From assembly GCA_001800135.1 (NCBI GenBank), contig MGUU01000018.1, positions 4,528 to 68,527 on the forward strand: a stretch of DNA of 64,000 nt. The letters run 5' to 3'. The notes below the pieces were generated by a model, which made no database searches, had not been told where the DNA came from, and saw nothing but the letters and a program-made list of their open reading frames with translations. This DNA is from Elusimicrobia bacterium RIFCSPLOWO2_02_FULL_39_32 (GTDB lineage Bacteria > Elusimicrobiota > Elusimicrobia > 2-02-FULL-39-32). The position numbers were made by a program, and so were the translations under genes. Below, piece by piece: positions 34,789 to 39,203 of the stretch (positions within the stretch are counted from its first letter, which is position 1; each line of letters begins with the position of its first letter).

Positions 34789-36417
34789 ATGATTAAACAA
34801 GTCATCAAGAAAAAAATATTGGAATTGATAACCAAAGAATATCCTCAAATTCCTTCCTTAGAATTTATGGTAGATGAACCTGCTTCTGAAATTGAGGCTG
34901 ATCTATGTTCTAACGCGGCTTTTCCATTAGGCAAACTATTGAACTGCCCGCCTTTTGAAGTGGCCAAGCTCCTTTCTGAAAAAATTTTAGACAGCTCAAT
35001 TTTTAAGAAAATCGAAGTTTCTAAAAATGGTTTTTTGAATTTTATTTTAGAGGACAAAGCTTTAAGAAAAATAATCTGGGAAATCTCTCAAGGGAATGGT
35101 GATTATTTGGGGGAAACTCATAAAAAAAGTTCAGAACGCATTCTTTTGGAATTTGTTTCAGCTAACCCCACGGGTCCTCTGCATATTGGACATGGGCGGG
35201 GAGCGGCTCTAGGGGATTCTTTGTATAGAATTTACCGCCAATGCGGTTTTAATGTGGAAAGGGAATATTATGTGAATGATGTGGGCTTTCAAATGCAAAC
35301 TCTAGCGCATTCTGTGGAAGCGCGTTATTTACAGTTGCAAGGGAATAAAGAAGTTCAATTGCCTGAAAATGGTTATCAAGGAGACTATATTAAAGAACTT
35401 GCAAAAACAATGTTAGATCTTAAGAAAAGCGATTTTAACACCTATCCTAAAGAATTTCTTTTAGACACGATTCGTCAAGATTTGGCGGACTTTGGAGTAT
35501 CTTTTGAACATTGGATGAGGGAATCTAGTTTACATTTAAGCGGCAAGTTAGACTCTGTGCTTGAATTTTTAGATTCAAAAAAAAGTTTAGCGGCAAAAGA
35601 TGGAGCGCTCTGGTTTGTGGGAGAGGCAAACAGTAAAGAGGAATTAGATAAAGAAAGAGTGATAAAAAAGTCAGATGGAAAATTTACCTATTTTGCTTCT
35701 GATATCGCGTATCATAAAGATAAGTGGGATAGAGGTTATACCCATTGCATTGACATTTGGGGGCATGATCATCATGGCTATGTTCCAAGGATGGTTTCTG
35801 CAGTGGGGGCGCTTGGAATTCCAAAAGATTTTTTAAAAATTCAACTTTATCAGCTTGTTTCTTTAAAAAGAGGGGGGAAAAAAGTGGCCATGTCCACTCG
35901 GTCAGGAGAATTTGTTCCTTTGAAAGAGGTGGTGGACGAGGTGGGGAGGGACGCAGCCAGATTTTTCTTTGCCTTGCGCAGCCCCACTTCTCATTTAGAG
36001 TTTGACATTGATCTTGCCAAAAAAAAGAGCAATGAAAATCCTGTTTATTACGCGCAATATGTTCATGCCAGAATTTGTTCTATTTTTTCTGAAGCAAAAA
36101 AAAGGGGAATTGATTTAGAGGTTTCCTTCAAAGATTTAGAGGGTAAGTGTGTAGAAAAAGAGGAGAGAGAATTAATGAAAAAAATATCTTTTTTTAAAGA
36201 TATTTTAGAATCTTCTTTACAGGTTTCATCTCCTCATTTATTAGCGAATTATTTAATTGATACTGCCACTAAATTTCACAGATTTTATGATCAGCATAGG
36301 GTTTTAGATGTAGAGCCTTCTTTGATGAGAGCTCGCCTTATTTTGCTGTTAGCCACAAAAAGAATTTTTGAAACAGGTTTAAACCTTTTAGGGGTGAGCG
36401 CGCCTGAATCTATGTGA
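34789..36417 (+). CDS. argS: Arginyl-tRNA synthetase
   Basis: 542 residues. Class I synthetase. N-terminal Arg-specific domain (about 1-110), then SANPTGPLHIGHGRGAALGD with the HIGH motif at 132-135, the catalytic core with DIWGHDHHGYVPRM, and MSTRSGEF as the degenerate KMSKS loop. The C-terminal anticodon-binding domain ends LGVSAPESM, slightly shorter than the usual ending in RM. Probably monocistronic, followed by tRNA-Ala on the other strand. Confidence 0.96.
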   Translation: MIKQVIKKKILELITKEYPQIPSLEFMVDEPASEIEADLCSNAAFPLGKLLNCPPFEVAKLLSEKILDSSIFKKIEVSKNGFLNFILEDKALRKIIWEISQGNGDYLGETHKKSSERILLEFVSANPTGPLHIGHGRGAALGDSLYRIYRQCGFNVEREYYVNDVGFQMQTLAHSVEARYLQLQGNKEVQLPENGYQGDYIKELAKTMLDLKKSDFNTYPKEFLLDTIRQDLADFGVSFEHWMRESSLHLSGKLDSVLEFLDSKKSLAAKDGALWFVGEANSKEELDKERVIKKSDGKFTYFASDIAYHKDKWDRGYTHCIDIWGHDHHGYVPRMVSAVGALGIPKDFLKIQLYQLVSLKRGGKKVAMSTRSGEFVPLKEVVDEVGRDAARFFFALRSPTSHLEFDIDLAKKKSNENPVYYAQYVHARICSIFSEAKKRGIDLEVSFKDLEGKCVEKEERELMKKISFFKDILESSLQVSSPHLLANYLIDTATKFHRFYDQHRVLDVEPSLMRARLILLLATKRIFETGLNLLGVSAPESM

Positions 36418-36450
36418 TAAGAATTTGATTTGTAGTATTTGAAATTTTTG

Positions 36451-36523
36451 TGGAGCTGAGGGGGATCGAACCCCTGACCTCCTGCATGCCATGCAGGCGC
36501 TCTCCCAGCTGAGCTACAGCCCC
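36451..36523 (-). tRNA. tRNA-Ala (anticodon GGC)
   Basis: A complete cloverleaf on the minus strand: acceptor stem GGGGCTG/CAGCTCC with the G3-U70 pair that marks tRNA-Ala, D-arm AGCTCAGCTGGGAGAGC, anticodon stem CCTGC/GCAGG with loop ATGGCAT (GGC), variable loop AGGTC and T-arm with GGTTCGATCC. CCA is not encoded. A TATAAT box lies upstream (36537-36542 on the minus strand). A broken copy of its 5' half lies at 37304-37340. Confidence 0.96.
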
Positions 36524-36536
36524 AATCAAAAAAATA

Positions 36537-36542
36537 ATTATA
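36537..36542 (-). promoter_or_regulatory. -10 box of tRNA-Ala
   Basis: TATAAT on the minus strand, about 14 bases before the mature tRNA 5' end. No good -35 box stands 17 bases upstream, in contrast to the broken tRNA copy at 37353-37381, which keeps TTGAAC with exact spacing. Confidence 0.55.
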
Positions 36543-36578
36543 TCAATTAAAAGTGCAGTCTTCTGGAAATAGATTTTT

Positions 36579-36938
36579 CTATTTTCCAATCACTTGCGCA
36601 AGAATCTGCGTAAAATCTTTCTCTAATTTTGGAATATCCTTCTGAATAGTATCCCATACAATATCCTGATTAGCTTCTTCATAATGGTGAATTAGAATAT
36701 CACGCATACCCACGATACTTTTCCAATCAATCATTGGATAGTTGCTGCGGAAGTCTGGAGAAATGCTCAGCAATCGTTTTGTTGCTTCACCAATTACTTC
36801 AATACAATGAAGTAAAGAATATTGTTTTTCAATGTTAGATGTAAATTCCTGTTTAGACAAATTTTTACTGATGGCAAGAATATCCCTACTATATTTAAGA
36901 ATATCTTCTATACAGTCAATAGGATCTCTTTTAGTCAT
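36579..36938 (-). CDS. hepT: HepT-type HEPN toxin (DUF86)
   Basis: 119 residues. Helical HEPN ribonuclease of the DUF86/HepT group with RDILIHHYEEAN (RX4HxY; the Tyr is the residue AMP-ylated by MntA in characterised systems). HCIEVIGEATKRL is the other conserved helix. The ATG overlaps the mntA stop (ATGA at 36935-36938), the usual coupling. Lies between an intact and a partial tRNA-Ala gene, so it may have arrived by integration there. Confidence 0.9.
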   Translation of the reverse strand: MTKRDPIDCIEDILKYSRDILAISKNLSKQEFTSNIEKQYSLLHCIEVIGEATKRLLSISPDFRSNYPMIDWKSIVGMRDILIHHYEEANQDIVWDTIQKDIPKLEKDFTQILAQVIGK

Positions 36939-37228
36939 AGAATATCAATTTTATCTTTTAAGATAGAACTTCTGAGACGTGGCTTTATATAATCAAATTG
37001 AACTAAATCTATTTCTCGATTCAATGCTTCTTTAAGATCCATATAAAGACTGCCCAACCCAAACAAAGTCATCCCTTTAGGAACTTGTATCAAGATATCC
37101 ACATCACTTTCTGGTTTTTGTTCACCACGCGCGTATGAACCAAAGAGGCTAGCTTTTGGAATACGATATTGCTTCAAAATTGGGAGAGCAGTATTAATAA
37201 TTTCTTGCGGTATAAAATAATTTTCCAT
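36935..37228 (-). CDS. mntA: MntA-type nucleotidyltransferase antitoxin
   Basis: 97 residues. ASLFGSYARGEQKPESDVDILIQV (about residues 27-50) carries the GSxxRG...SDxD motif; the third Asp is in REIDLVQFD. It should inactivate HepT by adding AMP to its Tyr. No Shine-Dalgarno site precedes the ATG; TATAAA lies five bases upstream (37234-37239), suggesting a leaderless mRNA. Upstream also lies the promoter of the broken tRNA copy, pointing into this operon. Confidence 0.9.
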   Translation of the reverse strand: MENYFIPQEIINTALPILKQYRIPKASLFGSYARGEQKPESDVDILIQVPKGMTLFGLGSLYMDLKEALNREIDLVQFDYIKPRLRSSILKDKIDIL

Positions 37229-37233
37229 GTTTG

Positions 37234-37239
37234 TTTATA
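37234..37239 (-). promoter_or_regulatory. -10 box close to mntA start
   Basis: TATAAA on the minus strand, five bases before the ATG; a weak -35 (TTATTT) stands 17 nt upstream. Fits the leaderless pattern of the other modules. Confidence 0.45.
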
Positions 37240-37303
37240 TTCTCGTATAAAGGAATAAATAAAATTTATGATTTGGTTTAAACATCCCTTGATCTTTCTT
37301 ATT

Positions 37304-37340
37304 CTATGCAGTCCACTCTCCCATCTAAAGCTACAGCTCC
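37304..37340 (-). pseudogene. Degenerate 5' half of tRNA-Ala
   Basis: Read on the minus strand, the sequence starts GGAGCTGTAGCTTTAG and runs through GGGAGAG to CTGCAT, then loses all similarity. It lines up with the 5' acceptor strand, D-arm and anticodon stem of the tRNA-Ala at 36451-36523, and the AT-rich region before it (GATATAATTA) also matches. The match stops at the anticodon loop. It cannot form a tRNA. Confidence 0.75.
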
Positions 37341-37352
37341 GATAAAAAATTA

Positions 37353-37381
37353 ATTATATCTAATAATTCTGTAAGGTTCAA
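37353..37381 (-). promoter_or_regulatory. Promoter left by the broken tRNA-Ala copy
   Basis: TTGAAC (37376-37381), 17 nt, TATAAT (37353-37358) on the minus strand: good boxes with ideal spacing. With the tRNA gone, transcripts would run into mntA-hepT 125 bases downstream. Confidence 0.6.
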
Positions 37382-37430
37382 AGAGTTGGTTTGTCAAAGT
37401 GAAGCCAATTTGGTATATTTTTTATTTCCT

Positions 37431-39203
37431 ATGAAAAGAACACATTATTGCGGTGAACTTCGTCGGAAAGACGAGAATCTGGATGTGGCGCTTTGTGGAT
37501 GGATTCATTCCTCAAGGGATCATGGTGGTCTATTATTTTTGGATTTAAGGGATCGGGAAGGCGTGGTTCAGATTGTGGTTTCTCCTGAAAAAAAAGAGGT
37601 ATTTAAGATAGCTCAAAGTTTGGGCTCAGAATTTGTGATTGAGGTTCAAGGACAAGTGCGCCTGAGGCCAAAAGGAACTGAAAATCCTAATCTTTCCACA
37701 GGGGAGATTGAGATTGACGCTAGAGAGATAGAAATTTTAAATACTTCTCTTGTTTTACCCTTTGAAATTTCTGAGTTTAATCAAGCTTCTGAAGAAATCC
37801 GTCTGCAATACCGTTATTTGGATTTAAGACGGCCATCGTTACAAAGAAATTTAATTTTAAGGCACCGCATTGTTCAATCTGTGCGTTCATTTTTGGATAA
37901 ACAGGGTTTTTTAGAGATAGAAACTCCTTTTTTAACTAAATCTACCCCCGAGGGGGCAAGAGACTTTTTGGTTCCTTCCAGATTAAATCCAGGACATTTT
38001 TACGCTTTGCCTCAATCCCCGCAGCTTTTTAAACAGATTTTAATGGTGGGGGGAATGGATAAATATTATCAGATTGTTCGTTGTTTTAGGGATGAGGATT
38101 TGCGTTCAGACCGTCAGCCAGAATTTACACAGATAGATTTAGAGATGTCCTTTGTAGAAGAAGAGGATGTGATGGGAGTCACAGAAAAAATTATCCTTGA
38201 AGCGTTTAAAGTTCTAACCGGCAAAGAAACAGATTTAGAATTCCCTCGAATTTCTTATGAAGAAGCGCTAAACCGGTTTGGCAGCGATAAGCCTGACCTT
38301 CGATATGAGATGGAATTAAAAGATGTGACTGATGATCTTAAGAATTCTTCTTTTCAAATTTTTTCTAATGCTGTAAAAGAAAACGGAGTGATTAAAGCTC
38401 TTTGTTTTAAAGGGGGAGCAAAACTTTCCCGGTCAGAAATTGACAATTTAACTGAATTTGTTAAAAGATTCGGCGCAAAAGGTTTGGCTTGGATTAAATT
38501 CACTGATGCTGGTCCTGAATCCAGCATTGTTAAGTTTTTTTCTAAGGAGGAACTTGCCCAAGTCCAGCTTAAACTAGGAGCGCTCAGCGGGGACATTCTA
38601 TTTTTTGGAGCAGGCGCTTGGAAAAGCGTTGTAATTATTCTGGGATCATTAAGAGTTGAGTTAGCTAAACGATATGATTTAATCCCTAAATCTGGAGCTT
38701 CTACTTATAAATTTTTGTGGGTCATCCATTTTCCCCTATTGGAATGGGATGATCAAGAGAAAAGATGGAGCGCCATGCATCATCCTTTTACTTCGCCAGA
38801 GGTAGAAAATGGCGATTTTTTGGAATCTGCTCCAGAGAAAGTCAGAGCTCGAGCCTATGACATTGTTTTAAATGGAACTGAGTTAGGAGGAGGTTCTATT
38901 CGTATTCATCGTAAAGAGCTTCAGCAGCGGGTTTTTAAAATTTTAGGCGTTAACGAAGAGTCAGCCAAAGAAAAATTCGGTTTTCTTTTAACAGCTTTAG
39001 AATATGGAGCGCCGCCGCATGGAGGGATCGCTTTGGGGTTAGATCGCATGGTGGCGATTTTTTCAGGAGAAGATTCTATTCGAGATACAATAGCGTTTCC
39101 TAAAACGCAAAAAGGAATCTGTATGCTTGCGGGTTCTCCATCAGAAGTGACGGAGCTTCAATTAAAAGAACTTTCTTTAGTTGTTAAGAAAATAAAAAAT
39201 TGA
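37431..39203 (+). CDS. aspS: Aspartyl-tRNA synthetase
   Basis: 590 residues from the ATG at 37431 (MKRTHYCGELR, the normal family start; an upstream in-frame start at 37386 adds 15 residues with no family match). Class II synthetase: OB-fold anticodon domain (about 1-110, WIHSSRDHGGLLFLDLRDREG), catalytic core with SPQLFKQ, CFRDEDLRSDRQPEFTQID, a bacterial GAD insertion (about 290-410), and motif 3 GLDRMVAIFSG. gatCA is present nearby (48937), so the enzyme may charge tRNA-Asn as well; sequence alone does not decide. Confidence 0.95.
   Translation: MKRTHYCGELRRKDENLDVALCGWIHSSRDHGGLLFLDLRDREGVVQIVVSPEKKEVFKIAQSLGSEFVIEVQGQVRLRPKGTENPNLSTGEIEIDAREIEILNTSLVLPFEISEFNQASEEIRLQYRYLDLRRPSLQRNLILRHRIVQSVRSFLDKQGFLEIETPFLTKSTPEGARDFLVPSRLNPGHFYALPQSPQLFKQILMVGGMDKYYQIVRCFRDEDLRSDRQPEFTQIDLEMSFVEEEDVMGVTEKIILEAFKVLTGKETDLEFPRISYEEALNRFGSDKPDLRYEMELKDVTDDLKNSSFQIFSNAVKENGVIKALCFKGGAKLSRSEIDNLTEFVKRFGAKGLAWIKFTDAGPESSIVKFFSKEELAQVQLKLGALSGDILFFGAGAWKSVVIILGSLRVELAKRYDLIPKSGASTYKFLWVIHFPLLEWDDQEKRWSAMHHPFTSPEVENGDFLESAPEKVRARAYDIVLNGTELGGGSIRIHRKELQQRVFKILGVNEESAKEKFGFLLTALEYGAPPHGGIALGLDRMVAIFSGEDSIRDTIAFPKTQKGICMLAGSPSEVTELQLKELSLVVKKIKN

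Follow-up and report, generated by a model that had tools for sequence, protein, structure and literature searches.

A toxin-antitoxin pair between an intact tRNA-Ala gene and a decayed copy of its 5' half: a probable scar of a 5'-restoring integrative element in an Elusimicrobia genome

Gene content of the argS-aspS interval

The window analyzed here is a stretch of 64,000 nucleotides from Elusimicrobia bacterium RIFCSPLOWO2_02_FULL_39_32 (MGUU01000018.1), whose genome is denoted G000 in the comparisons below; the relatives most often referred to are G001 (JACPBF01, a sister species in the same genus), G004 (JAHFCA01) and G008 (MGUQ01), the last two from the same family. Between argS and aspS, the minus strand of the window carries, in order, a promoter-like site, a decayed copy of the 5' part of tRNA-Ala(GGC), mntA, hepT, a -10-like site and an intact tRNA-Ala(GGC). 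The features are as follows.

34789..36417, plus strand: argS, chromosomal flank (open reading frame; 94% identical in G001)
36450..36523, minus strand: intact tRNA-Ala(GGC), the presumed regenerated target (ARAGORN; RF00005, 64.4 bits)
36537..36550, minus strand: -10-like TATAAT ahead of the intact tRNA-Ala(GGC), lacking a good -35 (sequence reading)
36579..36938, minus strand: hepT, HEPN RNase toxin (PF01934, E=1.7e-24; RX4HXY intact)
36935..37228, minus strand: mntA, nucleotidyltransferase antitoxin (PF18765, 2.5e-15; PF01909, 4.1e-14; GSX10DXD intact)
37301..37340, minus strand: decayed, displaced copy of tRNA-Ala(GGC) nt 1-38, interpreted as the distal half of the attachment site (local alignment against shuffles and a 32-tRNA control)
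37353..37381, minus strand: promoter-like TTGAAC-17-TATAAT ahead of the displaced half (top-scoring minus-strand site of the region)
37431..39203, plus strand: aspS, chromosomal flank (open reading frame; 96% identical in G001)

The intact gene is the only Ala(GGC) tRNA gene found in this genome and is identical at 73 of 73 positions to its counterparts in G001 and G004, and ARAGORN recognized no second tRNA near 36523-36450. The -10-like site that precedes it is absent from the list of promoter-like sites of the region. Only 0.8 kb separates the two tRNA copies.

The fragment near aspS is a copy of the 5' part of tRNA-Ala

A first-pass annotation, made from the sequence alone, had noted that 37304-37340 resembles the 5' part of tRNA-Ala(GGC). 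This resemblance is real and slightly longer than described, running along the minus strand from nt 1 of the tRNA at 37340 to nt 38 at about 37301 with two 1-nt insertions. Its local alignment score of 20 compares with at most 13 in 300 shuffles, and alignment of the copy together with its promoter scored 58, where shuffled sequences averaged 19 and reached at most 30. As a genome-internal control, we took 32 tRNAs from the same genome and compared each 5' half and each 3' half with up to 1.4 kb of sequence on each side; of the resulting 128 comparisons, that of the tRNA-Ala(GGC) 5' half with its upstream region was the best (score 20), the other 127 reaching 14 or less. Among the same 32 tRNAs, the one that best fits 37301-37340 is Ala-GGC (20), followed by Ala-CGC (16). 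The fragment is old and gapped, and the tRNA-aware scan proposed as a check, performed with Rfam on 37220-37430, gave no tRNA match, as expected for a decayed half.

The similarity had also been said to end at the anticodon loop, and this is borne out: its last matching base, nt 38, is the final base of the loop, and past the anticodon arm the similarity tested alone is not significant (484/3000 shuffles). A few 3' positions near the displaced half (AGATCAAGGG) look like a T arm, and extension of the 5'-half similarity anchored at the loop was equalled by 9/2000 shuffles. The possibility that the second copy is a whole decayed tRNA rather than a half was considered and is not preferred, the 3' part on its own being not significant. 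The reported likeness of the AT-rich sequence upstream of both copies likewise holds. It extends over 22 nt (GATATAATTA and flanks), was equalled by 34/5000 shuffles and scores 16 for the tRNA-Ala(GGC) pair compared with at most 12 for the other 31 tRNAs.

Overall, an intact tRNA is accompanied by a cognate 5' fragment that lies upstream in the same orientation, which is the arrangement of the class of genomic islands with a 5' tRNA fragment. The end of the fragment in the anticodon region also agrees with this class and with the attachment repeats of relatives described below, which end at nt 39 and 41.

The toxin-antitoxin pair

Both hepT and mntA are open reading frames. HepT retains RX4HXY as R79...H84.Y86 and the adjoining MntA retains GSX10DXD, the two defining motifs of the adenylylation-controlled HEPN/MNT pair (PMC7641770). 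The pair is like the Class I HEPN/MNT toxin-antitoxin system (HepT-MntA, PMC7641770) in its adjacent genes, antitoxin first, with both signature motifs, and unlike it in scoring under the NCBIfam equivalog cut-offs (NF047751 for HepT, NF047752 for MntA); its activity is putative. Because they score below these cut-offs, the two proteins appear to be divergent members of their families. By analogy with the characterized pair, MntA would presumably adenylylate the HepT RNase.

The nearest relative of the pair, on contig C11 of G001, is 76% identical at the DNA level across the two genes and no further, and no tRNA was found near it. This absence indicates that the toxin module does not include the tRNA copies, and by sequence comparison hepT-mntA appears to move independently of tRNA sequence. 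A module in which hepT-mntA carries its own tRNA flanks was also considered and rejected, the nearest homologs having no tRNA beside them.

Complete 5'-restoring elements in related genomes

Elements with the geometry of the window locus occur in complete form in relatives. In G001 (G001:C22:38200-55989; L154, L166), a tyrosine integrase homologous to that of G008 lies directly 5' of an intact tRNA-Lys(CTT), tRNA-Lys nt -1 to 41 recur without a mismatch 17.7 kb upstream of the intact gene, and a PIN-like gene is located directly inside this distal half. In G032, which belongs to another family of the same class, nt 1-39 of tRNA-Tyr are repeated perfectly 7.2 kb upstream and an integrase lies just 5' of the intact tRNA. 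G000 itself has a homolog of the G008 integrase 5' of tRNA-Lys(CTT), with the integrase end on contig C23 and a 41-nt tRNA-Lys 5' half on contig C20. The sequence shared by the two ends of the complete elements starts only at nt -1 or +1 of the tRNA and contains no copy of the promoter.

Beyond the PIN-like gene, the G001 element encodes a large helicase-like protein, a methylase-like protein and a reverse-transcriptase-like protein followed by a nitrilase-like one, the last two resembling a DRT defense system by eye. A small HTH protein is encoded beside the integrase, and the integrase frame continues through the tRNA 5' half and stops just past the repeat.

Sister-group integrases in the class are found 3' of tRNA-Glu and tRNA-Gly, and the 3' fragment that they leave downstream starts at nt 28 or 29 and runs to the tRNA end. 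A rapidly built tree of 34 integrases groups those 3'-side cases that have a tRNA nearby into a single clade (SH-aLRT 97) and places the ten 5'-side cases in at least two groups. Among the 5'-side cases, the attachment repeat was verified in G001, G000 and G032 only; no distal copy was found for the others in the available sequence, a large part of which extends only a few kb beyond the integrase on the upstream side. Integrase-family genes also lie 5' of tRNA-Leu(TAA) and tRNA-Lys(TTT), on the same strand (G000:C5:3501-4681 and G001:C2 about 101,135-102,250), and no distal ends were found for them.

The argS-aspS slot in relatives

In G001, tRNA-Ala(GGC) occupies the same place and orientation in the argS-aspS slot, which holds no hepT-mntA and instead encodes a 98-aa protein with weak similarity to DUF6290 and UPF0175, below Pfam cut-offs, and a 168-aa protein that has no Pfam match and reads like a PIN-type toxin. 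The aspS-side promoters of G000 and G001 are weakly similar (69/3000 shuffles). The slot of G004 contains a gene with a PIN_2 domain, together with a small protein that matches nothing in Pfam and by eye resembles Phd/YefM antitoxins. The cargo of the argS-tRNA-Ala-aspS slot differs, in sum, among G000, G001 and G004, amounting to three toxin-antitoxin or related pairs.

Between the PIN gene and tRNA-Ala(GGC), the G004 slot also contains what remains of a tyrosine integrase, 43 residues with 65% identity to the G008 integrase. The latter is intact, ends 19-22 bp 5' of tRNA-Ala(GGC) on the same strand and is 61% identical to the integrase of G000; in G008, tRNA-Ala(GGC) lies beside aspS in the opposite orientation, and argS is elsewhere. 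The comparison with relatives had been suggested as a means of finding an empty site, and in this respect it was negative: no uninterrupted argS-tRNA-aspS arrangement was present in 41 genomes or in a GTDB scan. What the comparison did provide was integrase sequence at the same tRNA in G004 and G008. Relatives without hepT-mntA that nevertheless have both tRNA copies, which the first-pass annotation had named as evidence against an insertion, were not observed; G001 and G004 have a single copy, and no displaced tRNA-Ala half scored above shuffles in either.

Additional tRNA-Ala-like sequences were seen in two further genomes. G007:C47 (L065/L006, 6584-6780 and 5280-5309) has an intact tRNA-Ala(GGC) plus extra tRNA-Ala-like copies, the second of which lies just ahead of aspS with an altered anticodon arm, while the third is a partial 3' copy on the other strand. 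In G005:C146 (L106 1130-1163), a 34-nt palindrome downstream of argS consists of the final 24 nt of tRNA-Ala and, facing them, their own reverse complement; no full tRNA-Ala(GGC) was found in this genome, which is incomplete.

Origin of the locus

We consider the locus to be the scar of a 5'-restoring, tRNA-targeting integrative element at the anticodon loop of tRNA-Ala(GGC), with a probability of about 0.7. This explanation is the best available and is largely supported by the relatives. It fits the breakpoint, the upstream position and orientation of the fragment, the slot, and the integrase remnants that family members have at this tRNA. In particular, a breakpoint at nt 38, set beside nt 41 for the tRNA-Lys element of G001 and nt 39 for the tRNA-Tyr element of G032, counts in its favor. 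An element would have recombined at the anticodon loop, bringing its own 5' half of the tRNA, and the original promoter and 5' half would have been pushed toward aspS and then decayed. The element would subsequently have lost its integrase and most of its cargo, leaving mntA-hepT between the tRNA copies, where the presumed original tRNA promoter (37353..37381) may now drive the pair. Survival of a toxin-antitoxin pair near the distal end as the last part of the element is plausible, since in the G001 tRNA-Lys element a PIN-like gene is distal and in G004 the pair is distal of the integrase remnant. As the first-pass annotation also proposed, hepT-mntA may have held the remnant in place.

Several observations run against an integration. 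The window shows neither an integrase remnant nor a repeat: the only match to an integrase in 36300-37500 is at chance level (15 residues, E 0.5), in line with the first-pass statement that none is present, and no copy of the GGGACACAATTTAGGACACA-like repeat found beside relatives' integrases occurs in the window near the tRNA. To these are added the missing empty site and the missing displaced halves in G001 and G004. In addition, the -10 region is alike in both window copies, unlike in complete elements. The initial proposal was that the insertion restored the tRNA with both its own 5' half and its own promoter; the first part is supported by elements of the same geometry and by integrases at the same tRNA, whereas the second finds no parallel in complete elements, which lack a promoter copy. 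The duplicated promoter is not explained by a simple integrase model. The shared -10 region could reflect an element whose promoter came from a related tRNA-Ala locus, a chance likeness of AT-rich sequence, or a duplication.

A tandem or segmental duplication of the promoter and tRNA-Ala, in its 5' part or as a whole, with decay of the copy and independent arrival of hepT-mntA in between, would give the similar promoter region at once and would suit the T-arm-like positions and the anchored extension. We regard this history as unlikely, however, in view of the lack of significant similarity past the anticodon arm alone, an end at nt 38 that matches the attachment boundary of relatives, and the presence of integrases 5' of this tRNA in both G004 and G008.

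The 5' duplicate could also stem from a small insertion of the GIY-YIG-endonuclease type whose cargo was later replaced. Such an insertion is seen in G011:C60 (L110, reverse strand, about 290-680 of the first 700 bases), where a tRNA-Ala copy is followed immediately by a GIY-YIG gene of about 80 codons and then by the intact tRNA-Ala, and as a remnant in G003 (L109 7564-7642), where the same 5' copy is accompanied by apparently only the tail of the gene. The copies in these genomes are, however, identical only to about nt 26 (nt 1-26 in G011) and then continue into a hairpin such as GTCCGCCGCGGCGGA that is absent from the window, where the copy reaches nt 38, and the two GIY-YIG genes of G000 lie outside the slot; we therefore find this origin very improbable. 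In G007 (L006 1051-1310), a GIY-YIG gene ends just ahead of tRNA-Ala. Together, the GIY-YIG cases resemble another, very small type of insertion at tRNA-Ala that duplicates its 5' part.

Finally, the three different pairs in the slot and the matching integrases elsewhere in G000 would agree with a small cassette bounded by tRNA halves and repeatedly swapped in trans by the integrases of other elements, but this is very improbable given that G004 retains an integrase remnant directly in the slot, which makes loss in place sufficient, that the nearest hepT-mntA homolog has no tRNA flank and that no attachment half was found in G001 or G004. A fuller version, with the slot as an active exchange site whose integrase-less cassettes use the displaced host promoter and endanger both the single-copy tRNA and the antitoxin when lost, seems just as improbable.

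Relation to known islands and significance

Restoration by the 5' half is rare, as first supposed, yet it is an established class: Islander lists 3,760 islands with a 3' tDNA fragment and 159 with a 5' fragment, 3,919 in total (PMC4383910). The locus shares with the latter an intact tRNA at one end, a 5' fragment upstream at the other, the same orientation and an anticodon-region crossover; it differs in its 0.8 kb size, decayed fragment, similar promoter region and lack of an integrase. Islander rejects candidates that are under 2 kb or have no integrase (PMC4383910), and these filters would cause it to miss the locus. In comparison with the tRNA-Lys element of G001, the locus likewise has a 5' half upstream (nt 1-41 in G001), a 5' half presumably supplied by the element and, in the place of the PIN-like gene of G001, a gene of the toxin-antitoxin pair directly inside the distal end, but the G001 element is 17.7 kb long, inserted at another tRNA, and has an intact integrase, a putative Xis, further large cargo genes and no promoter copy. 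As it has no integrase on board, we call the locus a remnant rather than an island, and within its class it is a heavily decayed example.

Under the preferred reading of 5'-restoring integration, the locus shows the final stage in the decay of a tRNA island of an uncommon class, which the filters of standard tools remove. It does so in a phylum where integrases that restore the 5' half can be compared with 3'-restoring ones from the same broad family. It is also a tangible example of a toxin-antitoxin pair being the last cargo to remain at a tRNA attachment site. Most interesting is that toxin-antitoxin cargo recurs at a single tRNA slot, with a putative functional meaning: the presence of three different pairs in one slot makes it possible to test whether modules of this type protect or occupy attachment sites.
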